From contig NZ_CP021731.1 of assembly GCF_003628555.1 (NCBI RefSeq), positions 3,224,001 through 3,288,000 on the forward strand: a stretch of DNA of 64,000 bases, written 5' to 3'. The position numbers were made by a program, and so were the translations under genes. The DNA is from Azoarcus sp. DN11. GTDB taxonomy: Bacteria > Pseudomonadota > Gammaproteobacteria > Burkholderiales > Rhodocyclaceae. Below the pieces are notes generated by a model, which did not search any database, had not been told where the DNA came from, and saw only the letters and a list, made by a program, of their open reading frames with translations. Positions 48,705-60,839 of this stretch are shown one piece after another; position 1 is the stretch's first letter, and every line of letters starts with the position of its first letter.

Positions 48705-48756
48705 TGGTGCCGGGAACGGGACTCGAACCCGTACGCCAAGGGCCGCAGATTTTAAG
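48705..48756 (-). other. 3' half of tRNA-Leu(UAA): attachment-site remnant
   Basis: 52 nt on the minus strand from the anticodon loop (CTTAAAA) through variable arm, T-arm (ACGGGTTCGAGTCCCGT) and acceptor strand to CCA. The 5' half is missing: the bases before CTTAAAA are TCTGG, not the GCAGA needed to pair with TCTGC. This is the usual scar of an integrative element that uses a tRNA 3' end as att. The intact tRNA-Leu should lie at the other element end, outside the window. Confidence 0.85.
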
Positions 48757-48932: not shown

Positions 48933-50135
48933 ATGGCAAAGATCAAGCTAACCAAAAGCGTTGTTGACGCGGCTCAGGCACAGACCTGCGACCTTGAACT
49001 CCGGGACACGATCGTTCCGGGCTTCTTGTGCAAGGTTACACCAACCGGCCGCAAAGTATTCATGCTTCAGTACCGAACGAACTCCGGCGTTCGCCGCAAG
49101 CCGGCGCTGGGCCAGTTCGGTGAACTGACCGTCGAACAGGCGCGGTCGCTGGCACAGGACTGGCTGGCTGAAGTCCGGCGCGGCGGCGACCCCGGCCACG
49201 ACAAGGGCGAAGCCCGCAAGGCACCGACGGTCAGGGAACTGTGCGGCCGGTTCATGGAAGACCACTCCAAGCTGCACAACAAACCGAGTACGCAGGACGG
49301 CTACCAGTACCAGATCGACAACTTCGTCATCCCAGCCTTCGGAACGAAAAAGGTCCACGAGGTTACCCGCCACGACATCACCGCGCTGATGAAGCGCATG
49401 GAGAAGTCCCCCACGCAGGCCAACCGCGTGCTGTCGCTCGTTCGCAAGATGTTCAACCTGGCTGAACTGTGGGGCTACCGTCCCGACGGCTCTAATCCTT
49501 GTCGCCACGTACCCAAGTACCCGGAGAAAGGGTCGACCCGCCTCATCACCGACGAGCAGATGGTCAGCCTGTTCGCCTACTTGGACAAGGCCGAGGCCAA
49601 GGGGCTGGAGCATCCGATCTATCTGCTGGCCGTCCGGCTGCAATTCGAGTTCGCAGCCCGCATGTCGGAAATCCTGCTGTTGCAGTGGGATTGGCTCGAC
49701 TTGCCCAATGGCCGGGTTGTCTGGCCGGACAGCAAGACGGGCGATATGTCGAAGCCGTTGAGCGAGGAAGCCCGTCGGCTGCTGACGAACGCGCCTCGCT
49801 ATGGCAAATCGCCCTACGTCTGCCCTGCTATCAACGATCACGACAAACCACTCGGCCCCCATTCCTACTACCAGGCATGGCGCCGCATTCTCGACCGCGC
49901 CGGCGTGCCGAAGGTTGGCACCCATGGCATCCGCCACCGCTCGGCGACCGATATTGCCAACTCCGGTATCCCGGTCAAGGTTGGCATGGTGCTGACCGCG
50001 CACAAGACCGTGGCGATGTTCATGCGCTACGTCCATACCGAGGACGACCCCGTGCGCAAGGCGGCCGAATTGGTGGCGAGCAGGCGCAAGTCGGTCGTCG
50101 GTACGCGCCAAGAACCGAAGGAGGTGACCACATGA
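48933..50135 (+). CDS. Tyrosine recombinase / integrase of an integrative element
   Basis: 400 aa, P4/CP4-57-like. N-terminal DUF4102-type domain (ELRDTIVPGFLCKVTPTGRKVF), SAM-like core-binding domain (about 100-190) and catalytic domain with Arg in FEFAARMSEILLLQW, HGIRHRS, TAHKT and the nucleophile Tyr in FMRYVHTED. Starts 177 bp from the split tRNA-Leu, the usual place for an integrase. The ribosome site AGGAG is inside an inverted repeat. Confidence 0.95.
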   Translation: MAKIKLTKSVVDAAQAQTCDLELRDTIVPGFLCKVTPTGRKVFMLQYRTNSGVRRKPALGQFGELTVEQARSLAQDWLAEVRRGGDPGHDKGEARKAPTVRELCGRFMEDHSKLHNKPSTQDGYQYQIDNFVIPAFGTKKVHEVTRHDITALMKRMEKSPTQANRVLSLVRKMFNLAELWGYRPDGSNPCRHVPKYPEKGSTRLITDEQMVSLFAYLDKAEAKGLEHPIYLLAVRLQFEFAARMSEILLLQWDWLDLPNGRVVWPDSKTGDMSKPLSEEARRLLTNAPRYGKSPYVCPAINDHDKPLGPHSYYQAWRRILDRAGVPKVGTHGIRHRSATDIANSGIPVKVGMVLTAHKTVAMFMRYVHTEDDPVRKAAELVASRRKSVVGTRQEPKEVTT

Positions 50136-50245
50136 CCAGTGGCCAGCGATCAACCCAGTCGGCCCGGCGCCCCTCCCCACCCGTGCATCGCGCGGCGGCC
50201 TGGAAAAGTGTGCCCGTTTCGGGTATAGTTTGGAGGTCAAGATGA
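50132..50245 (+). CDS. Possible 37-aa leader peptide between integrase and toxin
   Basis: ATG 50132 overlaps the integrase stop (ATGA) and has an excellent AAGGAGG 7 bp upstream. The product is a short Ser/Arg/Pro-rich peptide with no recognised motif; its 3' end overlaps the toxin start (ATG 50242). It may simply couple translation. Low confidence as a functional protein. Confidence 0.3.
   Translation: MTSGQRSTQSARRPSPPVHRAAAWKSVPVSGIVWRSR
50201..50229 (+). promoter_or_regulatory. Promoter/operator of the toxin-antitoxin pair
   Basis: TGGAAA (50201-50206), 17 bp, TATAGT (50224-50229), with a small inverted repeat CCCG-TTT-CGGG at 50213-50223 abutting the -10 box. A GTGCCC...GGGTATA arrangement of this kind is typical of autoregulated toxin-antitoxin promoters. 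GGAGG follows for the toxin. Confidence 0.5.
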
Positions 50246-50625
50246 CGCGCGTTCTCAAGCGAAAGGACTTTGCGCGGTGGCAGGCGAGCGAAAAGCTGCC
50301 TGATGCCGCCTTGTGCAAGGCGGTTCAGGAGATGGAAAGCGGTCTGATTGACGCGGACTTGGGCGGCTTCCTCTACAAGAAGCGGGTTGCCCGCCCCGGC
50401 GGCGGCAAGAGCGGTGGTTACCGCACGTTGCTGTCGGCTCGGATCGGTAGCCGCTACGTGTTCCTGCATGGGTTCCCCAAGAGTGACAAGGCGAACATCA
50501 CGCAGGACGAAAAGAAAGCGCTGCAATTCGCCGGTAAGGTGTTTCTGGAACTGTCCGCCGAGGCTTTGTCGAAGGCGCTGCAGTCGGGCGTGTTATTGGA
50601 GGTGCATTGTGAGCAAGATCATTGA
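50242..50625 (+). CDS. Type II toxin, RelE/HigB-like (PF06296 type)
   Basis: 127 aa; ATG 50242 with GGAGG 5 bp upstream. Fold features of the RelE/ParE superfamily HigB group: TRVLKRKDFARWQASEKLPDAAL, GFLYKKRVARPGGGKSGGYRTLLSAR, YVFLHGFPKSDKANIT. Expected to cleave mRNA at the ribosome. Toxin-first order with the antitoxin overlapping by 17 bp. Confidence 0.88.
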   Translation: MTRVLKRKDFARWQASEKLPDAALCKAVQEMESGLIDADLGGFLYKKRVARPGGGKSGGYRTLLSARIGSRYVFLHGFPKSDKANITQDEKKALQFAGKVFLELSAEALSKALQSGVLLEVHCEQDH

Positions 50626-50911
50626 ATCCCTGCGTGGCGACCTGGCTGCGCTCCACGAAGCAGGAGCGATCAGTAAGGTGACGATGCGCGAGTTCGACGC
50701 GATCTGCCCGCCGCCGGTGCGGGAGTTCAGCGCTGCCGACATCAAACGCCTGCGCGAAGCCTTGAAGTTCAGCCAGCCGGTGTTCGCTCTGCATTTGCAC
50801 ACGTCGACCTCGACCGTGCGCAAATGGGAGCAAGGCGACACCCATCCCACGGGGCCGGCACTCAAACTGCTGAACGTCATCGCCGACAAGGGCCTGCAGG
50901 CCATCATCTGA
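50609..50911 (+). CDS. Antitoxin, HigA-like with XRE-type HTH
   Basis: 100 aa from GTG 50609, GGAGG 6 bp upstream. Helical N-terminus, then a helix-turn-helix: FSAADIKRLREALKFSQPVFA and STSTVRKWEQGDTHPTGPAL. Neutralises the preceding toxin and represses the promoter. Overlaps the toxin by 17 bp. Confidence 0.88.
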   Translation: MSKIIESLRGDLAALHEAGAISKVTMREFDAICPPPVREFSAADIKRLREALKFSQPVFALHLHTSTSTVRKWEQGDTHPTGPALKLLNVIADKGLQAII

Positions 50912-50933: not shown

Positions 50934-51752
50934 TTGGCGACGCGAATTGACCCTTTCAGCTCACAGCATCTTGAAGCTGCGTGCCGCGTGCTCGCCGATA
51001 CCGAGCACGGCTTGAGCGGCACGCAGATCGAACGCCTGCTGCAAGAAATCGAGATTGCCGACACGTCACCCGGCATGACCAAGTGGAAGCGGTTGTTCAA
51101 TGCGCTGGCCGGTGCACAGAACCAGCATCAGATCGGCAACCATCTCATCATGTTCATCAACCGTGCGATGAACCCGGTGAACTACGCCCGTGACCCAGCG
51201 ACGTTCGCCTGGCGGCGCGACGAACTCAATGTCGTCCTTGCCTTCTCCGGTTTCTACGTGCGCGACGACGGCAAGGTCGCGCATGCCGACAAGGCCACGA
51301 CGCTTGATGCCGCGCGCGCACGAGCTGGACGACTCAAGGCCGCGCTGGAAAGCCGCGTCGTCCACGCGGAAGTGCTGAACTATTGCCGCGCCGAGCTGCT
51401 GGATGAAAACTACTTCCATGCCGTGTTCGAGGCAACGAAAGGCGTTGCGGAGCGGATTCGCCTGCTGTCGGGCCTGAACGGCGATGGCGCGGACTTGGTG
51501 AATAAGGCATTCGCTGGCCAGCAGCCCGTTCTCGCCTTGGGACCGCTCACCACCGAGTCCGAGAAGAGCGAGCAGAAAGGCTTTGCCAATCTGCTGATCG
51601 GCCTGTTCGGCGCCGTGCGCAATCCGCTGGCGCATGCACCCAAGACGAATTGGCCCATGTCCGAACAGGACGCACTGGACATCCTGACGCTGGTATCGCT
51701 GATTCACCGCAAGCTGGATGGCACCACGAAACTAGCGGCCGTATCGCCATAA
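50934..51752 (+). CDS. TIGR02391/Ymh-type protein
   Basis: 272 aa from a TTG at 50934 with AGGGAG 7 bp upstream. The N-terminal ~130 residues are unassigned; the C-terminal region has the Ymh-like pattern FEATKGVAERIRLLSGLNGDG, then GFANLLIGLFGAVRNPLAH and ALDILTLVSLIHRKLD. Such domains recur in defence islands, but their activity is not known. Follows the antitoxin by 22 bp and precedes the nuclease-like gene by 13 bp. Confidence 0.72.
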   Translation: MATRIDPFSSQHLEAACRVLADTEHGLSGTQIERLLQEIEIADTSPGMTKWKRLFNALAGAQNQHQIGNHLIMFINRAMNPVNYARDPATFAWRRDELNVVLAFSGFYVRDDGKVAHADKATTLDAARARAGRLKAALESRVVHAEVLNYCRAELLDENYFHAVFEATKGVAERIRLLSGLNGDGADLVNKAFAGQQPVLALGPLTTESEKSEQKGFANLLIGLFGAVRNPLAHAPKTNWPMSEQDALDILTLVSLIHRKLDGTTKLAAVSP

Positions 51753-51765
51753 GGGAAAGACAGGA

Positions 51766-53049
51766 ATGGACGAGGCGATCGTTGTCTTCTCTCGAAAAGG
51801 GATTTTCCAGACCATGATCGCCGCGCGTGACGTTCGCAGCCGGGAACATGCACGCAAGCTGTGGCCCCTGGTGTCTCCCGGCGCATCACGACAGATGGTG
51901 ACATGGGTCAGCCCCTCCTTTGAGAGCGGGAAGTTGCGTCGGCGATCCCACTTCCGCGTGCTTCCTGCCCAGCACACCTTTAATCCCAAAGCGCACTTCG
52001 ACGATGAAGAAGCCAGCCGGTGGCACGCCGTACAGGAAAGCTCCGAACACCGGCAGGCGAAAGAACTGGTCGCGGCCGAACTCTCCCGACGCTTGAATGC
52101 GGGGCTTGCGATGCCGTGGGCGTTCAAGGATGCGGATGCGTCGGACTATCCGCTGGAAGGCAACTTGTTGCTCGGCGCCGACCGGGTGGCAACCGAGCAT
52201 CCCCTGGAGACGCCTTTCGGCAGCAAATTCCGGCTTGACGTTGCCGTGCTCGGGCCGCCGGTCCAGGCCGAGCCGATGGTGCTGGGCGGCGTTGAAATCG
52301 AACTTGGCCACGCTTTCGATGGACGCAAGGCGCTGATCGGGAAGTCGCTCGGATTCCCGCTCATCTCCATCGACATCACCGAGATGACGCTGGCCGAACT
52401 CACGCCGGAATGGGCACAGCAGGTATTGACCGCAACCACGCGGAGCCACGAGCAAGGGCGCAGGCAGACCTACGTCTATCTCCACGACCTGCTGTATCCC
52501 CTCTACGCGCAATTGCCGGCGTTTCTCGACGACGAGCAGCGGCATCAATTTCTTGTGTTTGCGGACGATGAGACCCTGAACAAGTTGGTGCGCTGGATGA
52601 ACCTGCTCGCCGAAAAGCTGGAGTACCCGAAGGGTGCGGTCGCCGTTGCCCTGGTCAATGGCAAGAACGAACAGTCGCGCAAGATGCTGGAGCGTGCTGG
52701 ACAGGTCGTTGGCCCCGACTGGAGTGAGTTCAACGGCCAGCGATGCCTACGGCTGACCTTGCCGCGCCCCAAAGGCCCGGCTGATCTCCAAGCCCATCGC
52801 TTCCACATGACGATGGCGCGCATCCTGCTGTCGCACACTGATGCGCTCGTTGGCTACAAATACTGCAACGGCGTGGACAACAACCACCCCGAAGAAGACG
52901 TGTGGGTAGCACATCGCTGGATCGCCGACCTGAAAACTCATACCCAGCACCGCGTATTGCCGAAGCGGCTGGCCGAACCGATCAACAGGTTGATCGCGGT
53001 GGTTTCGGACCTGCATCGCAATCGAGTTGAAACTGGCCAAGAGGCGTGA
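51766..53049 (+). CDS. CoiA-like protein with a PD-(D/E)XK nuclease-like core
   Basis: 427 aa. Residues 90-200 show a CoiA/restriction-endonuclease pattern: ESSEHRQAKELVAAEL, then FRLDVAVLG with Asp158, and GGVEIELGH with Glu177/Glu179, followed by KALIGKSLGFPLISIDITE. The C-terminal ~220 residues are unassigned. Could act on foreign DNA; this is inference from motif and location. No signal or membrane segment. Confidence 0.6.
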   Translation: MDEAIVVFSRKGIFQTMIAARDVRSREHARKLWPLVSPGASRQMVTWVSPSFESGKLRRRSHFRVLPAQHTFNPKAHFDDEEASRWHAVQESSEHRQAKELVAAELSRRLNAGLAMPWAFKDADASDYPLEGNLLLGADRVATEHPLETPFGSKFRLDVAVLGPPVQAEPMVLGGVEIELGHAFDGRKALIGKSLGFPLISIDITEMTLAELTPEWAQQVLTATTRSHEQGRRQTYVYLHDLLYPLYAQLPAFLDDEQRHQFLVFADDETLNKLVRWMNLLAEKLEYPKGAVAVALVNGKNEQSRKMLERAGQVVGPDWSEFNGQRCLRLTLPRPKGPADLQAHRFHMTMARILLSHTDALVGYKYCNGVDNNHPEEDVWVAHRWIADLKTHTQHRVLPKRLAEPINRLIAVVSDLHRNRVETGQEA

Positions 53050-53132
53050 CCGTGACCATCCCGAATGTCGGAATCACCTTGCGGGCAAACACTACAGCGG
53101 AGCCAGGCGCCTGTTTGCTAGTTGGACAGATC

Positions 53133-53921
53133 TCAGTCCGTCGTCGGTTTTGGTGCTCTTTTTCGCGGGGCCGAAGAAGGCAAAGACGGCAAGCACTCGA
53201 ATAGGCGTTCTGCATAGACGAACCCCATCCGCCTGACTGCGCTCTGATCGAAATACAGTAGCCAAGCGGCCAGTAACGCCAGCGAAATGAGCAGCGTTAG
53301 GCCTGCAGCGAGCCCCGGATCAGCAAAATGCACAGGTTCAAAATGTGGAGGCGCAACCTGCAAGATTTTTGCAATCAACAATCCATAAAGGATACCCAAG
53401 AGGCACGACAAAATGCCAACGGGTTTCATCGCTAACATATTGCGATGGAATCCGTATGCAATATTCTCTTTGAGTAGGAGCTGCTTGTTGGAACGGGTGA
53501 GTTCGCGGAGTCGCTTGGTTGCCCCAATGTAGGTATCGTCCGCCTTGTCCTGATCTGCTGATTCCTCTTCTGCGTTCGGCATGGCAATACCCAGCTTAGC
53601 TGTAATCGCGGTGTGATATCGCTGCTTGCTGACGCTATCCAGAAATTTGTCACGATGGCGCAGGGCGATGGTTGTTGGCATTCCGCCCCATTTTTTCACT
53701 AGGGACTCTTCCAACTTTTTTCCCCGTCCACGGGCTACGCTTGCGAGCGCATAAATGGCACCGCAGCCACCCAGCAGTCCGATCACGCCTGTAAGTACCG
53801 GGTGCTTTGCGCCGTAGACACACAACAAGGGAACGAGCAGCGGCAAAGCTACAAGAAGTCCTGGAATTACGCGCGCCTTGCGCTCGTAGGGGTCTTTGAC
53901 CAGTTCAAAAATATTCGTCAT
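53133..53921 (-). CDS. Membrane protein with two TM hairpins (S-4TM/SLATT-like architecture)
   Basis: 262 aa. TM pair at about 18-62, a cytosolic middle (ALRHRDKFLD ... KRLRELTRSNKQLLLKENIAYGFHRNM), and a second pair at about 170-230, then a basic tail. This 2+2 layout is like the four-TM effectors found beside nucleotide or ubiquitin-like defence systems. No recognised enzyme motif. Directly downstream (6 bp) of the WYL regulator in one minus-strand unit. Confidence 0.6.
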   Translation of the reverse strand: MTNIFELVKDPYERKARVIPGLLVALPLLVPLLCVYGAKHPVLTGVIGLLGGCGAIYALASVARGRGKKLEESLVKKWGGMPTTIALRHRDKFLDSVSKQRYHTAITAKLGIAMPNAEEESADQDKADDTYIGATKRLRELTRSNKQLLLKENIAYGFHRNMLAMKPVGILSCLLGILYGLLIAKILQVAPPHFEPVHFADPGLAAGLTLLISLALLAAWLLYFDQSAVRRMGFVYAERLFECLPSLPSSAPRKRAPKPTTD

Positions 53922-53927
53922 AGGTGC

Positions 53928-54830
53928 TTAGCTTTGGGCCGACAAGGCATCAATATAGGGTTGAATTTCATCGCGGTTTTTCAAAGTGATCTGCTGCGCG
54001 AGGGGGTCGGGTGCTTCCTTGGTATGCAAGCCCAAACGCCTCAGTGTGTAGTACAGAAACGCTTGGCGGCATGGAAGTTTGACCTGTCCACCCTCCATTC
54101 CATAGTCCAACTCCAGGACTCGTTTCTTGGCAGCGGGCAAATCGGGATGCGGTGCAAGCACCAGCGTCAATACAGTTTGCCAATGCGAATCCTGGCTGGA
54201 GTCCACTTGGCTCGCCTCGAAGCCATCGATGCGCAGGATTCGGGCGAGGACAAAATCGCTGAAGCGCTGGCGCTTATGGCAAAACGCGCGCATGTGCCAG
54301 CGAAAACCGTCGTTGCCCAGAGCGTGCGGCGACAGCAGACGAACCGATTCGTCCAAGGACGTCATGGACTGGTAGCTCACCCAAATGGCTTCCTGCTGCC
54401 GAATTGCCCGGACCACTGCTTCGACGGCCTGTTCATTGATCGTGCGCCAAGGGGACGGTGCCCAATCTGCCTCAGGCGCTGAGCCAATAAAGCTGGCCGC
54501 TGGTTCGATGACTCCCATCTTGGTGGCCAGCAGCTCAGCTAGATAGTGTTGCGCCGAACTTCGCTGGTAAAGCGGATGAAAACTCGGTGCTGCCGTGTAC
54601 GTCTTGGAACTGCGGTCATAAATCAGGTTGTTCGGCGCCAACTCCGTGTACTTGGCAATGTCCAGTGAGGCCTGTGGGACCGATATGCCGAAGTGCTCGG
54701 TGAGATCCATTCGATTGATACGCCGCTCCCAGCGCAAACGGAAATCGATGAATTGAAGTCTGCTCTCCAACCCCCAACTTAGTCCCTTGGGCTCAGCAGG
54801 ATCGGCGGCAGTGGCAGGAGGCTCTTGCAT
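53928..54830 (-). CDS. WYL-domain transcription regulator, CapW-like
   Basis: 300 aa. N-terminal winged helix (RINRMDLTEHFGISVPQASLDIAKY), then a WYL domain (AIWVSYQSMTS, RLLSPHALGNDGFRWHMRAF, RFSDFVLARI) and a C-terminal extension. The RWHxRA and DFVLxR blocks fit WYL proteins that autoregulate CBASS-type systems. It diverges from the MBL/E2-E1-JAB genes across an 89-bp gap with repeats, as expected for a repressor of both sides. Confidence 0.85.
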   Translation of the reverse strand: MQEPPATAADPAEPKGLSWGLESRLQFIDFRLRWERRINRMDLTEHFGISVPQASLDIAKYTELAPNNLIYDRSSKTYTAAPSFHPLYQRSSAQHYLAELLATKMGVIEPAASFIGSAPEADWAPSPWRTINEQAVEAVVRAIRQQEAIWVSYQSMTSLDESVRLLSPHALGNDGFRWHMRAFCHKRQRFSDFVLARILRIDGFEASQVDSSQDSHWQTVLTLVLAPHPDLPAAKKRVLELDYGMEGGQVKLPCRQAFLYYTLRRLGLHTKEAPDPLAQQITLKNRDEIQPYIDALSAQS

Positions 54831-54846
54831 TATTTACGCCTAAAAA

Positions 54847-54907
54847 GTAGACGGATATAAAAAATCGTCGTACATTAACTATACGCGATCATCCTTCGGT
54901 CGTCTAC
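54847..54907. promoter_or_regulatory. Candidate WYL operator array in the divergent promoter
   Basis: GTAGACG (54847-54853) is matched by CGTCTAC (54901-54907), with a related CGTCGTAC at 54866-54873 between them. TATAC near 54881 could be part of a -10 box for the plus strand. The spacing covers promoters of both directions. Function is inference. Confidence 0.4.
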
Positions 54908-54919
54908 CCGGAGACCCCA

Positions 54920-56112
54920 ATGCCTACTACCATCACGTTTTTCCCCGTCGACAACGGGGACATGACTCTCATCAAATTCGGCGACCTCGACGCAACGACG
55001 CTGCTGATCGACGTAAACATTCGGCAGGACGCCGACAACCCCGAAAAGGACGTGCGCGACGTTGCCAAGGATCTGCGTGAACGGCTGAAAAAGGATGAGA
55101 ACGGCAGGCCGTATGTCGATGCCTTCCTGTTGAGCCACCCGGACCAGGATCATTGCCGTGGCCTGACGCGCCATTTCTACCTGGGACCGCTGGACAAGTA
55201 CCCGGATGACAAGAAGGACGACAAGGACAAGAAAATCGTGATCCGCGAGATGTGGTCGTCCCCGATCGTGTTTCGACGCGCCAGCAAGACGCACACTTTG
55301 AGCGACGACGCCAAAGCATTCAACACGGAGGCACGTCGGCGGGTACAACTGAACCGCGACAAGAACTTCGCCGTCGGAAACGGCGACCGCATCCAGATCA
55401 TGGGCGAGGACATCGACGGAAAAACCGTGATCTCACCTCAATTGTGCGGAAGGTGGACACGCGTTTCTCGACGATCAACGGCAAGAGTTCCGCATTCTTC
55501 TCTGCGTTTCTTTTGGCACCCCTGGATGCCCAGGACGACGAAGAAGAGGAAGAGTGCCTGGTCAAGAACCAGTCCAGCGTGATCCTGAACATCACATTGG
55601 CCGCTGATGCTCAGACGCCGGATGGCGCAAAGTTCCTTACTGGGGGCGATGCTGAGGTGTTCATCTGGAACCGCCAGTGGCAGCGTCACGAGGCCGAAAC
55701 CGATGTACTTGAGTACGACATCATGCAGGCACCGCATCACTGTTCCTGGCATTCGCTGTCCTATGACAGTTGGTCCGACTACGGTGAGAAGGCCGAACTC
55801 GATGCCGATGCCCGCAAGGCGCTTTCGCAGACCCGTGACGGCGCCGTCATCGTCGCTAGTTGCAAGCCGATTGCAGACGACGACAGTGATCCACCCTGCA
55901 TCCGCGCAAAGCGTGAGTACGTGGCAATCGTGGACGAAGCAAAGGGCGAGTTCTACTGCACGGGCGAATACCCGAGCGAGAAGTCCGTGGAACCCCTCGT
56001 TTTCACCGTCACCGCTCAGGGTGTGCAGCCTCCCTCGAAGAAGGAGTCCGGATCGAAGGCCGCTGCCGTGATCACCTCCGCGCGCACTCCGATGCCGCAC
56101 GGGGCATCATGA
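54920..56112 (+). pseudogene. Metallo-beta-lactamase-fold protein, frameshifted
   Basis: ATG 54920 with GGAG 6 bp upstream. The first part has the metal motif SHPDQDHCRGL (His73, Asp75, Asp77, His78). At the A5 run 55420-55424 the frame changes; the rest continues one base back through VRKVDTRFSTINGKSSAFF, FLTGGDAEVF and IMQAPHHCSWHS, ending at 56112. With one more A in the run the reading is continuous (about 397 aa). Either a real inactivating deletion, a slippage site or a base-call error. Coupled to the E2-E1-JAB gene by ATGA. Confidence 0.82.
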
Positions 56113-58253
56113 CGGGCGCCATCGCAGACGCACTACATCAACTTCAGCGGCATCGGGGCCTGATTCGCGTTGGCGAGCCAAAGGCAAGCGGTGCATCGAC
56201 GCAAATAGAAGTCGATGTTGCCGTCCAACTGCCAAACAGGTCACGACGTAACGGCGTCTCCGAAACCGGAGTGCGCGCTGTCGAGACATGCGTGCTGGCA
56301 TTCGGCAGTGATTGGCCCCTGTCTGCGCCCAATCCTTTCTTACGTGCGGACTTCCCGCTCAATTTGCCGCACATCAACCCCCATCGCGAAGGTGAGCTGG
56401 TCTCGCCTTGCCTGTTCGAGGGGTCGTTGGACGAGTTACTGCATCGGTTTGGCCTGGACGCCATTGTCGATCAGTTGGTCGATTGGCTCCACAAAGCCGC
56501 AGCCGGAACATTGCTGGACTTGGAACAGGGGTGGGAGCCGACGCGCCGAGACAGTTGTCCCTCGACCATTGTATTCAGTGCCGAGAAGGTCGCGGCTGCC
56601 GCACCCGCTGACGGCACGATTCTGGTAGTTCCGGCAGGCTACGTGACCATTGATGGCGGGCTATACGCCATCATCAATGCCGAACTGACCGCACAAATCG
56701 ATGCAGTGTTCTTTCAGGAAGTTCACAACGACAAGTTGGGCAAGTGGGGAAATGGTCGTACTGCGGCCTTCATTGCGCGGGCTCCAATAACCGGCGGCCA
56801 CCCGTATGTCGTCGGACACTATCAACCGGAGACGGTTGTCGATCTCGCTACGCTGCTTGATCGAGCAGCGGAACTCGGCATTGATCGCGACGCTTTGGCC
56901 CAAGGCTTGGATGGTTATTACGGACGCTCGATCCTGGATATGCAGCAGGACTCGCGCGGCTGGGTGCATGGCTTGTACGCGATTGTGATTCTGACTGTAC
57001 AACGGCCAGCTTCGCTTGTGGGTTCACCAGGGAGAAGTATCGAGGTATTGCCCTATGTGGTGCGCTATGAACTCAATACCCAATCACTCCTAGAGCGAAA
57101 CGCCACGGTTCACCCGGCCTTTCATGCGCATGCGCTGTCCCCCGAGCTATTGGCAAGAACGTCCGGCATTCCATCAGCAGCCACATCGCAGCCGCTGGTC
57201 ATACTGGGCTGCGGAAGTGTGGGATCGAAAATCGCGATGCAACTGGGGCGAGCAGGTTTCGGCTCAATGACTTTCGTCGACAACGAATCCATGTCGCCTC
57301 ACAACGCGGCGCGGCATGCACTCATTGAGCGGGCATCGGTACTGGTTCCACCTCGGAAGTCGGCACTGATGAAGACGGCCTTTGAGGAGCTGTCGCATCT
57401 TCAATCGCGCGCGTTCGACACCGACGCCGTGACCCTTCTGGTCGATCCGGCACAGTTCGCCACAGTCGTTCCGCAGGATGCGGCCCTCATCGTGGACGCG
57501 ACGGCCTCACTTCAGGTGCTGGCCGCAGAAACACAATCAGCAGCACTGAACCAGTCTCCTGCCCGCCTGGTACGGATCGCGATGTATGGTCAGGGCCGCT
57601 GTGTCGCGGTTTTGCTCGAAGGGCCTGGTCGCGCCGGCCGCATTGACGACCTTACAGCATTCTTGTTCGAGTGCTGTCGGTTTGTGCCGGAACTGCGGGC
57701 ATCGATTGCCGGGGATACGTCGGAGCCGACGCGCATTTTTGTGGGCGACAACTGCCGTTCACTGACGATGCCAATGTCTGATGCCGTTGTTTCGCGTTCT
57801 TCGTCACTGGCCGGCATGCAACTGGAACGCTGGCTCGTTGGCGGGCTTCCGAAGGAGGCAATGCTTTGCGCCGGGGTCTCGGATGCCGAAGGCCTCGGTA
57901 TGGCATGGACCCGCGCCAACCTTGGCCCGACCACTGTGCTCGAAGTAGCTGACGATGGTGGCTGGAACATTCGGATTCTGCACCCGGTCGCGCAAGCGAT
58001 CCATGCTGATGCGCTGCACTGGGGTTCCCTGGAAACAGGCGGAGCCTTGGTCGGCCGCATCTCGTTTGAAAATCGAACCATCACCATTGCGGGCATCGTG
58101 GACGCTCCGCCTGACAGCATTCGAGAGGCCGCCCGCTTCGTCCTCGGAACGGATGGACTTGTTCAGAATTTGCGCACGGCAAATGGAGCCTCTTTGGGGT
58201 ATCTCGCCTTCATCGGAACTTGGCATAGCCTGTCCGCGCGCGTTGAATTTTGA
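56109..58253 (+). CDS. E2-E1-JAB ubiquitin-like conjugation fusion, truncated in JAB
   Basis: 714 aa visible. Residues about 20-150 form an E2-like domain with candidate catalytic Cys101 (LVSPCLFEG) after FPLNLPHINPH; a linker follows. Residues 360-560 are a ThiF/E1 Rossmann domain: LVILGCGSVGSKIAMQLGRA and FVDNE with Asp391. Residues about 635-706 start a JAB/JAMM peptidase: ETGGALVGR (Glu642) and FIGTWHS (His706). The expected second His and Asp of HxH...D are gone because the frame runs into IS21 sequence (LSARVEF, stop). So E1 and E2 may be intact but the isopeptidase is lost. Confidence 0.85.
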   Translation: MTGAIADALHQLQRHRGLIRVGEPKASGASTQIEVDVAVQLPNRSRRNGVSETGVRAVETCVLAFGSDWPLSAPNPFLRADFPLNLPHINPHREGELVSPCLFEGSLDELLHRFGLDAIVDQLVDWLHKAAAGTLLDLEQGWEPTRRDSCPSTIVFSAEKVAAAAPADGTILVVPAGYVTIDGGLYAIINAELTAQIDAVFFQEVHNDKLGKWGNGRTAAFIARAPITGGHPYVVGHYQPETVVDLATLLDRAAELGIDRDALAQGLDGYYGRSILDMQQDSRGWVHGLYAIVILTVQRPASLVGSPGRSIEVLPYVVRYELNTQSLLERNATVHPAFHAHALSPELLARTSGIPSAATSQPLVILGCGSVGSKIAMQLGRAGFGSMTFVDNESMSPHNAARHALIERASVLVPPRKSALMKTAFEELSHLQSRAFDTDAVTLLVDPAQFATVVPQDAALIVDATASLQVLAAETQSAALNQSPARLVRIAMYGQGRCVAVLLEGPGRAGRIDDLTAFLFECCRFVPELRASIAGDTSEPTRIFVGDNCRSLTMPMSDAVVSRSSSLAGMQLERWLVGGLPKEAMLCAGVSDAEGLGMAWTRANLGPTTVLEVADDGGWNIRILHPVAQAIHADALHWGSLETGGALVGRISFENRTITIAGIVDAPPDSIREAARFVLGTDGLVQNLRTANGASLGYLAFIGTWHSLSARVEF

Positions 58254-58258
58254 CCCCC
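58239..58258. repeat. IS21 terminal inverted repeat, istB end
   Basis: 20 bp pairing with 60785-60804 at 17 positions, including the TTGACCCCC core. It lies within the last codons of the truncated JAB frame. Confidence 0.75.
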
Positions 58259-58334
58259 CGTGTGCACCGAATTCTGACCCCGGGGGTTTAGCCGTTCATC
58301 ATTGATTGGCTGTATTGAAGTGTAGTCGTATCGA

Positions 58335-58389
58335 CCGAGGGGGAGGAAGCGGCGAAGGGCGTAGCCCGCAGCCGCTTCCTCCCCCTCGG
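58335..58389. repeat. 19-bp perfect hairpin inside the IS, downstream of istB
   Basis: CCGAGGGGGAGGAAGCGGC and its exact complement separated by 17 nt, with no T-run. It lies between the istB stop and the IS end. May block read-through into the IS or form a stable transcript end. Confidence 0.8.
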
Positions 58390-58486
58390 CTCAGAATGGC
58401 GCGTCCGGCTCCGCGGTCACATCCAGGGACTCGACGGGCCGCGTCGCCCGGCTCGCCTCGCGCGCCCGGACGCGCGCCTTGGCCGT

Positions 58487-59212
58487 CTAACTGCTTTGCT
58501 GGAAACGGAAGGATTCGTTGCCCGTTTCCACGATGTGGCAGTGGTGCGTGAGACGGTCGAGGAGCGCAGTCGTCATCTTCGCGTCGCCGAACACGGAGGG
58601 CCATTCGGCAAAGGTCAGGTTCGTCGTGATGATCACGCTGGTGCGCTCGTAGAGCTTGGAGATCAGGTGGAAGAGCAAGGCGCCGCCGGCCTGGCTGAAG
58701 GGCAGATAGCCCAGCTCGTCGAGGATCACGAGGTCGACGTGCATCAGCGCGTGCGCGAGCCGCCCCTGTTTGCCGGCGGCCTTCTCCAGTTCCAGACTGT
58801 TGGCGAGCTCGACGGTGGAGAAGAAGCGCACCCGCTTGCCCTGCTCGGTGATCGCCTTCACACCCAAGGCGGTCGCGAGATGCGTCTTGCCGGTCCCGGT
58901 TCCGCCGATGAACACGACGTTGGCGGCGGCGTCGGTGAAGGCCGCGGTGGCGAGTTCATCGATCAATTTTGCATCGACTTTCGACTTGTCGAAGTCGAAG
59001 CCGGCCAGATCGCGGTGCATGGGGAAACGCGCCGCCCCCATCTGATAGCGGATCGAACGCACATGGCGGTCGGTGACTTCAGCCTCGAGCAGACACTGCA
59101 TGAGCCAGCCGGCACTCTGGATGCCGACGCCGCCTTCCGCGAGCAATTCCTCGTAACGCTGGGCCATGCCGTGCAACCGCAGCGATTTCAGTTCGGCGAC
59201 GATCTCACGCAT
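58487..59212 (-). CDS. istB: IS21 helper ATPase IstB
   Basis: 241 aa from ATG 59212 ([17 protein letters not shown]) with GGAG 8 bp upstream. DnaC/IstB AAA+ fold: Walker [12 protein letters not shown], Walker [14 protein letters not shown], and [16 protein letters not shown]. Regulates target choice and IstA activity. Overlaps the istA stop by 8 bp. Full length. Confidence 0.95.
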
Positions 59213-60698
59213 GATCGTTCTCCGCGTGCAGACGGTCGTAGCGGCCGGCGTCGGCAAGCGGTGCCTCGGTCACCGCGAGTGCCGTGTCGAGGGGTGTCGG
59301 TGGGGGTGCCTGGCGCAGGCGGGCGAGCACATTCTTGACGTGCTCGGCGCTGGGCGAGCCGGATTCGAGGATCACTTCGACCGCCACCAGCACGTTCTCC
59401 AGGCCATGCCGGGGGACGTGCGCCAGAATGTCGGCCATCAGGCGGTCGCCGCCCGGGCGTTTGACGAGCAGCGCCCGCAGTTGCTGCAGCGGCGCCGGCA
59501 AGCCCTCGAAGGGTGCTCCGTTGCGCAACGCGCCCGGCTTGCGTTCGAGCAGCGGCAGGTAGTGCTGCCAGTCGTAGATGACCTGGCCACGCTCGAAGCT
59601 ACGCGCATGGGTGGCGACGAGACCGTCCTCGGCATGGATCTCGATCCGCTCGGGGTACAGCCGCAGGCTCACCTTCTGGTTGGCGAAGGCGCACGGGACC
59701 GAGTAGCGATTGCGCTCGTTCGTCACGAGACTGGTACTGGACACCGGTACGATCGCCTCCACGTAGCCATCGAAGCTCGGCACCATCGGCATCAAGGCAT
59801 CGCGCTCAAGCGTGAGGGCGTCGGCGATGGTGAGGTGCTCGGCGTCCGGGTACGCCAGTTCCGACCACAGCGCCTGGCAGCGCACCTCAAGCCAGGCGTT
59901 CAGTTCGGTGAAACTGCCGAAGCGCCGTTGTAGCGCCTCCTGCCACAGGCGCCGCCGGCTGTCCTGCACGTTCTTCTCGACGACCCCTTTCTCCCAGCCG
60001 CTGGCAACGTTGCAGAAGTCCGGATCGAACAGGTAGTGCGCCGCCATCGCCGCGAAGCGCGTATTGACGATGCGCCGCTTGCCCACGCCAACCTTGTCGA
60101 CGGCGGTCTTCATGTTGTCGTAGATGCCACGCCGGGGAATGCCGCCGAACACCCGGAACGCACGCGTGTGCGCATCGAACAGCATCTCATGGCTCTGCGT
60201 CGGGTAGGCCGCGAGCATGAAGGCGCGGCTCGCACAGAGCTTCGTATGGGCGAGCAGCACCTTGCGATGGAAGCCGCCGATCACCAGCGATTCCTCGCTC
60301 CAGTCAAACTGGAAGGCCTCGCCGAATTCGAATTTGAGCGGGATGAAGCTCGATTTCGCAGGCTTCCCACCGGCCTCGCGCCAGCGTCGCACGTACTCGC
60401 TCACCCGCGAGTAGCTGCCCGTGAAGCCCAACTCCTTCAACTGCCGAAACAGCACCAGCGCCGTGCGCCGCTCCCGCTTCGCCCGTCGGGCGTCCGCCTC
60501 GAGCCACTGCACGAGCCGCGTCTCGAAGGGCGCCAGTACCGTCTCCCGCGCCGTTCGCCGGTACTTCGGTTCGGCTCCCTCGCCAGCCCTCAGCCATTGC
60601 CGCACGGTGTTGCGTGCCAGCCCCGTGCGCCGGCAGATCTCCTTGATCGACAGACCGTCGCGAAAGTGCAACCGCCGAATCTTGCCCAGCATGTTCAT
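59205..60698 (-). CDS. istA: IS21 transposase IstA
   Basis: 497 aa from ATG 60698, which has GAGGAG 9 bp upstream; an ATG three codons earlier abuts the ribosome site. HTH ([20 protein letters not shown]), then an rve/DDE core with Asp in [21 protein letters not shown] and Glu in [12 protein letters not shown], and a C-terminal beta domain ([16 protein letters not shown]). All catalytic residues are present, so the element may be active. Confidence 0.96.
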
Positions 60699-60784
60699 GG
60701 TGATCATCTCCTCGAACCCTGCTCAAACATCGAGCAGGCAGGTTAATCACCAGGGTCAATTTTCAGCGCGCACAACCCGCGAAA

Positions 60785-60804
60785 GGGGGTCAATTTTCAA
60801 TGCG
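60785..60804. repeat. IS21 terminal inverted repeat, istA end
   Basis: Complement of CGCATTGAAAATTGACCCCC. A second copy of CTGAAAATTGACCC lies inward at 60753-60766, giving the multiple-repeat end typical of the family. Confidence 0.75.
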
Positions 60805-60839
60805 TAGCAACAACTCTCCCCTGACCAGAAAGGATCGCC

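Follow-up and report, generated by a model that had tools for sequence, protein, structure and literature searches.

A decayed 6A-MBL cassette in Azoarcus sp. DN11 and the putative role of its glycine-tailed metallo-β-lactamase as a ubiquitin-like modifier

Positions 53133 to 58253 of a 64,000-nucleotide stretch of Azoarcus sp. DN11 (contig NZ_CP021731.1, positions 3,224,001 to 3,288,000 of the forward strand; hereafter the window) hold a 6A-MBL anti-phage cassette in decayed form. In such cassettes a metallo-β-lactamase (MBL) is encoded beside a single protein that joins E2, E1 and JAB domains. We think it probable, though with moderate confidence, that the MBL of this cassette is itself a ubiquitin-like modifier, which would be conjugated by the E2-E1 part, matured by JAB and would thereby license a membrane effector. 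The observations behind this reading are the gene content of the cassette, its conserved catalytic residues, the conservation of a glycine tail on the MBL and the covariation of this tail with the conjugating enzyme. The pairing of MBL and E2-E1-JAB was already known; the new point is a mechanistic one, the glycine tail on the 6A-MBL. The parts of the cassette are listed below in window coordinates.

53133..53921, minus strand: membrane protein with four transmembrane (TM) segments in two hairpins, 262 amino acids (aa), the proposed effector (open reading frame (ORF) list, hydropathy).
53928..54830, minus strand: CapW-type WYL regulator, 300 aa, 6 bp upstream of the four-TM gene (Pfam WYL, CapW 7tb6).
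54831..54919, no strand: common divergent control region, 89 bp, between the WYL and 6A-MBL starts.
54920..55582, plus strand: first piece of the 6A-MBL, frame 2, with homology to about 55440 (NF058524 positions 1-182, E 5.5e-60).
55420..56112, plus strand: second piece of the 6A-MBL, frame 1 (NF058524 positions 158-346, E 2e-65).
56041..56109, plus strand: C-terminal tail of the MBL, ending ...RTPMPHGAS, with the conserved Gly codon at 56101-56103 (tail statistics).
56109..58253, plus strand: E2-E1-JAB fusion, 714 aa, with homology to relatives up to 58229 (Pfam, NCBIfam).
Within the fusion, plus strand: E2 at about 56121-56603 (Cys101), ThiF at about 57195-57515, Cys549, and JAB from about 57984 (profile matches, conserved residues).
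58230..60812, minus strand: IS21-family element (istB 58487-59257, istA 59205-60707), which closes the JAB reading frame.

Much of this layout agrees with an initial annotation made from the sequence alone. The four ORFs form two divergent units sharing the 89 bp between 54830 and 54920, the membrane protein has four hydrophobic segments (hairpins at residues 18-63 and 168-222), and no cGAS-like nucleotidyltransferase was found by Pfam among ten proteins of the window (48.9-59.3 kb; the scan covered window proteins, not relatives). E2, E1 and JAB were likewise correctly read as lying in that order in one polypeptide: Pfam Prok-E2_A (E 1.2e-56) and ThiF (E 1.7e-11) match the 714-aa protein, and NCBIfam 6A-MBL_cap2_3, whose cut-off is 320, matches it with 523 bits (E 1.7e-156). 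The Pfam Prok-JAB score of 21.2 bits is below the cut-off of 25, perhaps because the JAB domain is cut short. Cys101, Cys549, glycines 367, 369 and 372, and Glu642 are invariant in 16 divergent E2-E1-JAB proteins; from their positions and familiar motifs, we take Cys101, Cys549 and Glu642 to be the catalytic residues of E2, E1 and JAB, respectively, and the three glycines to be those of the nucleotide site. The ATGA coupling of the MBL and E2-E1-JAB genes is confirmed, with the overlap at 56109-56112; the MBL gene is in two frames, not one.

Neighbourhoods of this kind had indeed been described computationally, as the initial annotation stated. Row 6a in Table 1 of Iyer et al. (2006) records an E2-E1-JAB triple-module protein almost always adjoining an MBL (PMC1779556), and NCBIfam in 2026 labels both core genes 'anti-phage 6A-MBL system' (NF058523, NF058524). 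Judged by sequence, the window locus belongs to this operon type 6a, or 6A-MBL: E2, E1 and JAB follow one another in one polypeptide, the MBL gene is adjacent and both genes match the NCBIfam profiles. The anti-phage role of 6A-MBL is putative and taken from the NCBIfam name. A new type for want of a cyclase was rejected, 6a having been described since 2006. The proposal of a distinct type did not survive either: the core is that of operon type 6a/6A-MBL, a fifth gene (encoding a second MBL) had been overlooked, and the four-TM module also occurs without the core. CapW and the glycine tail go unmentioned in the available parts of PMC1779556 and in the NCBIfam names, as do the four-TM protein and the second MBL. 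In the literature searched we found no paper using the term 6A-MBL and no statement that the 6A-MBL itself is conjugated.

The MBL reading frame of the window copy shifts at about 55420-55440; in relatives such as locus L039 the gene is a single ORF of 397 aa. A programmed frameshift was rejected on this ground, and the shift may be a sequencing error. Against NCBIfam 6A-MBL_enzyme (cut-off 220) the first piece scores 203.3 bits, under the cut-off, and the second 221.2, just over it; the second is 96.5% identical to residues 168-397 of the L039 protein. Homology of E2-E1-JAB to its relatives stops at residue 707 (58229), and the 2583-bp IS21-family element starts at 58230. The JAB domain is whole in relatives, but here the HxH motif is without its second histidine and the Ser/Asp is lost too. 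Because homology stops at this element and does not restart to its right, the JAB end and the gene that comes next in relatives have been lost. The genome holds no close copy of the second MBL gene elsewhere, the sole match (34% over 62 residues) being to the other 6A-MBL of this genome. There are five genome copies of the element at at least 96% identity, and the 96-99.8% identity of the four others suggests recent spread. With its MBL and JAB broken, the window copy is unlikely to perform the mechanism that we propose for the intact cassette.

Two further observations concern copies of the cassette. A second, apparently intact 6A-MBL core lies 1.5 Mb away in the same genome (L105, C1:4750000-4766000) together with a patatin gene, and its MBL, about 30% identical to that of the window, has a VGFG tail. 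A search of 72,556 plasmid records found the stretch 53100-58229, with its four genes, in 12 of them (H1-H12), all from Acinetobacter and with an identity of 95.5-95.6%.

The C terminus of the 6A-MBL was compared in 192 sequences, namely the best 120 of 3163 database hits and 72 from loci, some of which represent one place twice. A glycine falls within the last eight residues in 191 of them. The tail is flexible, mostly rich in Ala and Ser, and ends in PHG, PRAG, xHG, GFG/GYG or YG. Among 149 distinct tails, 147 have the Gly motif followed by 0-6 variable residues, the exceptions being P0219 and L121; the latter, which coincides with L130, has no E2-E1-JAB beside it. PHG-type tails (n=74) have 0-2 variable residues after the glycine, while 28 of the 61 PRAG-type tails stop at it and the others continue for 2-6; for both types together 41/135 stop and 94/135 extend, and overall 101 of the 149 distinct tails extend beyond the glycine. 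After clustering at 60% identity, [AHFY]G was present in the last eight residues of 13/14 6A-MBL clusters (mean 2.4 and at most 8 in 2000 shuffles) and in 0/14 second-MBL, 0/11 four-TM and 1/9 WYL clusters, the motif having been set after inspection of the tails, with the shuffles serving as a guide and not as a test of a prior hypothesis. The second MBL is without the Gly-tail motif of the 6A-MBL.

Tail type goes with E2-E1-JAB and not with the MBL body, as judged from gene sequences. For 41 loci with both genes whole, it changes four times on the E2-E1-JAB tree, the minimum possible, versus six times on the MBL-body tree, both being quick trees with long branches. In 11 loci the MBL body groups with the window lineage and E2-E1-JAB with the L106 lineage, and the tail in all 11 is of the RAG type found in the L106 lineage. 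Five of them (L052, L112, L059, L060 and L073) were compared with L039 and L106: their MBL bodies share 57-62% identity with the former and 26-28% with the latter, and the values for E2-E1-JAB are 23-26% and 34-35%, respectively. E2-E1-JAB has apparently been exchanged for that of a distant lineage in L052, L059-L061, L063-L066, L073, L095 and L112. Compared with the window, these loci have MBLs of 52-66% identity, four-TM proteins of 61-85% (36% in L112) and, where present, WYL proteins of 43-63%.

A precedent is provided by type II CBASS (cyclic oligonucleotide-based anti-phage signalling system), where a C-terminal G/A on the cyclase is restricted to operons that have full-length Cap2 (E2-E1) and Cap3 (JAB), and Cap2 conjugates the cyclase by way of this residue (PMC10097602). 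Both systems combine the chemistry of E2-E1 and JAB with a partner enzyme whose C terminus bears a conserved glycine (PMC10097602). They differ in that the window has an MBL in place of a cyclase, E2, E1 and JAB form one protein, and the glycine tail sits on the MBL, often with residues after the glycine; the cassette would therefore work alike without being a member. By analogy with the type II CBASS cyclase, the MBL may be conjugated through its tail glycine. JAB would trim the few residues past this glycine and would also reverse conjugation, the E1 domain would activate the glycine, and the E2 domain would join the MBL to a target. Conjugation would then activate an effector at the membrane, the likely killing arm of the system. 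In this cassette that would be the four-TM protein, together with the second MBL; in other loci its place would be taken by a patatin phospholipase or a different two-hairpin membrane protein. From work on the CapW family, the regulator is expected to hold both divergent units silent until damage or infection.

The body of the 6A-MBL has a ComEC-like MBL fold with a metal-binding motif. The motif HxDxDH (H73, D75, D77, H78) is invariant in 20 aligned relatives, and the AlphaFold model of the L039 protein has a mean predicted local distance difference test (pLDDT) of 89 and a predicted template modelling score (pTM) of 0.90, its tail (residues 375-397) staying below a pLDDT of 50. The best structural match of this model is the MBL domain of ComEC, 9ic4 (E 3e-13), followed by the choline esterase Pce, 2bib (E 3.8e-11). 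Both L039 MBLs match the LmuA and RTasMBL profiles, and the L039 MBL had no match in phage records. MBL hydrolases of AVAST, Lamassu, Hachiman and DRT, which belong to the same ComEC-like superfamily, are described as gated DNases, as shown for Hachiman and AVAST; in some defence systems apart from 6A-MBL, the MBL is a pro-DNase that proteolysis unlocks (PMC12799240). This makes gating of an MBL by conjugation, which we propose for 6A-MBL instead, plausible. A trypsin-like protease partner was not noticed in the loci, where no search was aimed at one.

The gated MBL hydrolases of those systems (PMC12799240), with the invariant HxDxDH of a ComEC-like enzyme, also favour an explanation in which the MBL acts solely as a nuclease effector. 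On this view some other, unlinked protein would be what E2-E1-JAB conjugates, and the Gly tail would have a part in localization or binding. We regard this as unlikely, since variable residues past a conserved glycine, and a tail that tracks the E2-E1-JAB lineage, are not expected of a localization signal. Nor was a ubiquitin-like gene noticed in the loci read, although no systematic search was made. Bil and Bub operons use a ubiquitin-like protein.

The company kept by the four-TM protein was examined in 60 loci found by an alignment scan, 58 in a set of one genome per species and two in viral contigs, with gene presence scored by profiles built from the same loci. The scan bore out the initial expectation that the genes co-occur elsewhere, with WYL, MBL and E2-E1-JAB all present in 42/60 four-TM loci. 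Both 6A-MBL and E2-E1-JAB occur in 45/60, the second MBL in 50/60 and some MBL in 56/60; the remaining four are L057, in which a transposase apparently splits the regulator, L087 and L091, at contig ends, and L092, a partial match. All five genes (four-TM, WYL, 6A-MBL, E2-E1-JAB and second MBL) are present in 37/60 loci, and on the gene content of relatives the full cassette comprises five genes, of which the fifth, the second MBL, is missing in the window. Merging at 95% four-TM identity left 37 representatives, of which 23 carry the core, 29 the second MBL and three no MBL; merging at 80% left 21 (nine, 18 and two, respectively). Second MBLs of relatives match PADLOC PDC-M48B at 234-515 bits (ten scanned, with profiles independent of these loci).

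In 11 of the 60 loci the four-TM protein and the second MBL, 0-225 bp apart, stand without the core, which indicates that this protein is a swappable module and not the mark of a distinct type. Together with PADLOC, which counts the second MBL among the components of its candidate system PDC-M48, these loci also speak for two separate systems, the 6A-MBL core being one defence and the four-TM protein with its PDC-M48-like MBL another, with only a CapW promoter in common and kept together by a defence island. This appears rather unlikely to us when loci are approached from the core. We read, with wider flanks, 17 6A-type loci found without a four-TM query (16 over a family cut-off, L121/L130 under it) and set aside L130, with no E2-E1-JAB, and L107 and L108, which have E2-E1-JAB but no MBL detected beside it (2/17). 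In all 14 loci with both core genes there is an adjacent membrane-type gene, mostly in the same direction: a patatin in five (L105, L109, L117, L128 and, fused, L111), whereas the gene of the other nine (L106, L110, L112-L116, L127 and L129) encodes a membrane protein of the two-hairpin type. With its threshold of a mean of 1.4 over 19 residues, the hydropathy rule calls too many segments, marking parts of some E2-E1-JAB proteins as well; the call for L116 is from hydropathy alone, and L129 has three of four segments marked. Patatin-type effectors such as CapV are also found in type II CBASS. Locus L127 keeps close relatives of the window core and regulator, with a PHGAS tail, and in the place of the four-TM protein has another membrane protein with a PDC-M48B-type MBL, as an effector slot would.

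Homology between the four-TM family and the small two-hairpin family of other loci was considered and rejected as not demonstrated (hhalign probability 0.7%, E 0.075), their topology being alike. The four-TM protein has 474 homologues at E<=0.001; nothing was over cut-off in Pfam or NCBIfam, and it matches no PADLOC profile. Profiles of the two membrane families gave either no match to solved structures or matches to two proteins over short stretches, which from their names we presume to be designed proteins. Two loci stand out by their content. In L111:8469-12005, E2-E1-JAB and a patatin domain share one ORF, a direct link of conjugation and phospholipase. L130:7215-8456 encodes a 6A-like MBL without E2-E1-JAB or Gly-tail motif, among neighbours that resemble sugar-nucleotide genes by eye.

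Several points weigh against the MBL as a conjugated modifier. Conjugation, its target, activation and killing are steps that we infer. The choice of tail motif after inspection and the quality of both trees have been mentioned; in addition, any glycine in the last eight residues occurs in 14/14 6A-MBL clusters versus a shuffle mean of 8.4 and a maximum of 13, a modest excess, and also in 7/14 second-MBL clusters, and P0219, among the 120 listed homologues, has no Gly tail. As the tail is encoded beside the start of E2, their physical linkage could be enough for tail and enzyme to be inherited as a unit. The resemblance of the L039 model to Pce keeps a nuclease role of the MBL putative. On the effector side, searches of PDB and BFVD with the four-TM model (mean pLDDT 78) returned no similar fold at E<=0.001, and this protein often has its own MBL partner and no core; L107 and L108 are E2-E1-JAB loci without a detected MBL.

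The WYL protein can be classed as CapW-type from its homology to solved CapW and its place beside a defence operon, in line with the initial annotation. It matches Pfam WYL at E 6.9e-12 and, among solved structures, 7tb6 (Stenotrophomonas maltophilia CapW; E 1.4e-71), 7tb5 (a WYL protein; E about 1e-71) and BrxR (E 4.5e-43). Binding of CapW to palindromes that overlie the -10 site has been reported (PMC9122588), and the shared promoter of the window has a near-palindrome, CGTACATTAACTATACG at 54869-54885, which is a candidate CapW operator to which CapW may bind. The pattern CGTAYATTAANTATACG is exact in 7/11 aligned control regions and in 28/122 loci, three of these being overlapping copies of the window, and its chance expectation in the window at <=3 mismatches is 0.07. 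The control region has a further inverted repeat, with arms at 54847-54853 and 54901-54907, whose conservation is lower than that of CGTACATTAACTATACG. The operon differs from those of the three CapW proteins studied, which belonged to type III CBASS (PMC9122588).

As CapW/BrxR regulators answer DNA damage, the cassette could be a general stress response rather than a form of anti-phage immunity. The related Bub operons, which like Bil use E1, E2 and JAB conjugation in bacterial immunity and are controlled by CapW or CapK/CapS, have, according to a 2026 paper, yet to be shown to protect against phage (PMC13373217). We nevertheless judge a stress response very unlikely: NCBIfam calls the gene pair anti-phage, the cassette stands beside PD-Lambda-3 genes, and it occurs on 12 plasmids and in two viral contigs.

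More tentatively, 6A-MBL may be a ubiquitin-like immune pathway with a ComEC-like metallo-enzyme in place of a ubiquitin fold as modifier, interchangeable membrane effectors (four-TM, small two-hairpin TM, patatin) and infection-specific targets, an MBL counterpart of type II CBASS. If conjugation of the MBL is confirmed, bacterial cGAS would no longer be the sole enzyme class known to be conjugated whole, and a second, unrelated one would join it. The gene pair of 2006 would also become a testable pathway through one glycine, two cysteines and one JAB glutamate. The co-occurrence data also link an unnamed family, that of the four-TM protein, with MBL enzymes and defence.

The cassette lies near the following features, which bear on the initial placement of the locus on a tRNA-Leu element.

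48933..50135, plus strand: tyrosine integrase of the element (Pfam Phage_integrase, E 4.9e-18).
About 48705..48756, minus strand: apparent 3' half of tRNA-Leu(UAA), read by eye beside the integrase.

Of a tRNA-Leu only this half is seen, and neither ARAGORN nor Rfam called a tRNA at about 48705-48756. The half has no second identical copy in the genome and one 80% match; it is probably a partial tRNA-Leu(UAA) left as an attachment scar. At 50934-53049 the window encodes PD-Lambda-3_B (PADLOC E 1.5e-179) and then an unnamed 427-aa protein, a pair that tblastn placed beside the cassette in 11/60 four-TM loci, with part of the first gene only in L036 and L037; PD-Lambda-3 has been described as abortive infection (PMC13190303). 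In a relative, L077:10758-11789 encodes a HEAAH protein, metallopeptidase-like by eye and with no PADLOC match at E<=0.1, that overlaps a four-TM gene following a second-type MBL. In the window, a RelE-type toxin (Pfam E 5.6e-45) and then an ORF resembling a helix-turn-helix antitoxin by eye occupy 50230-50911.

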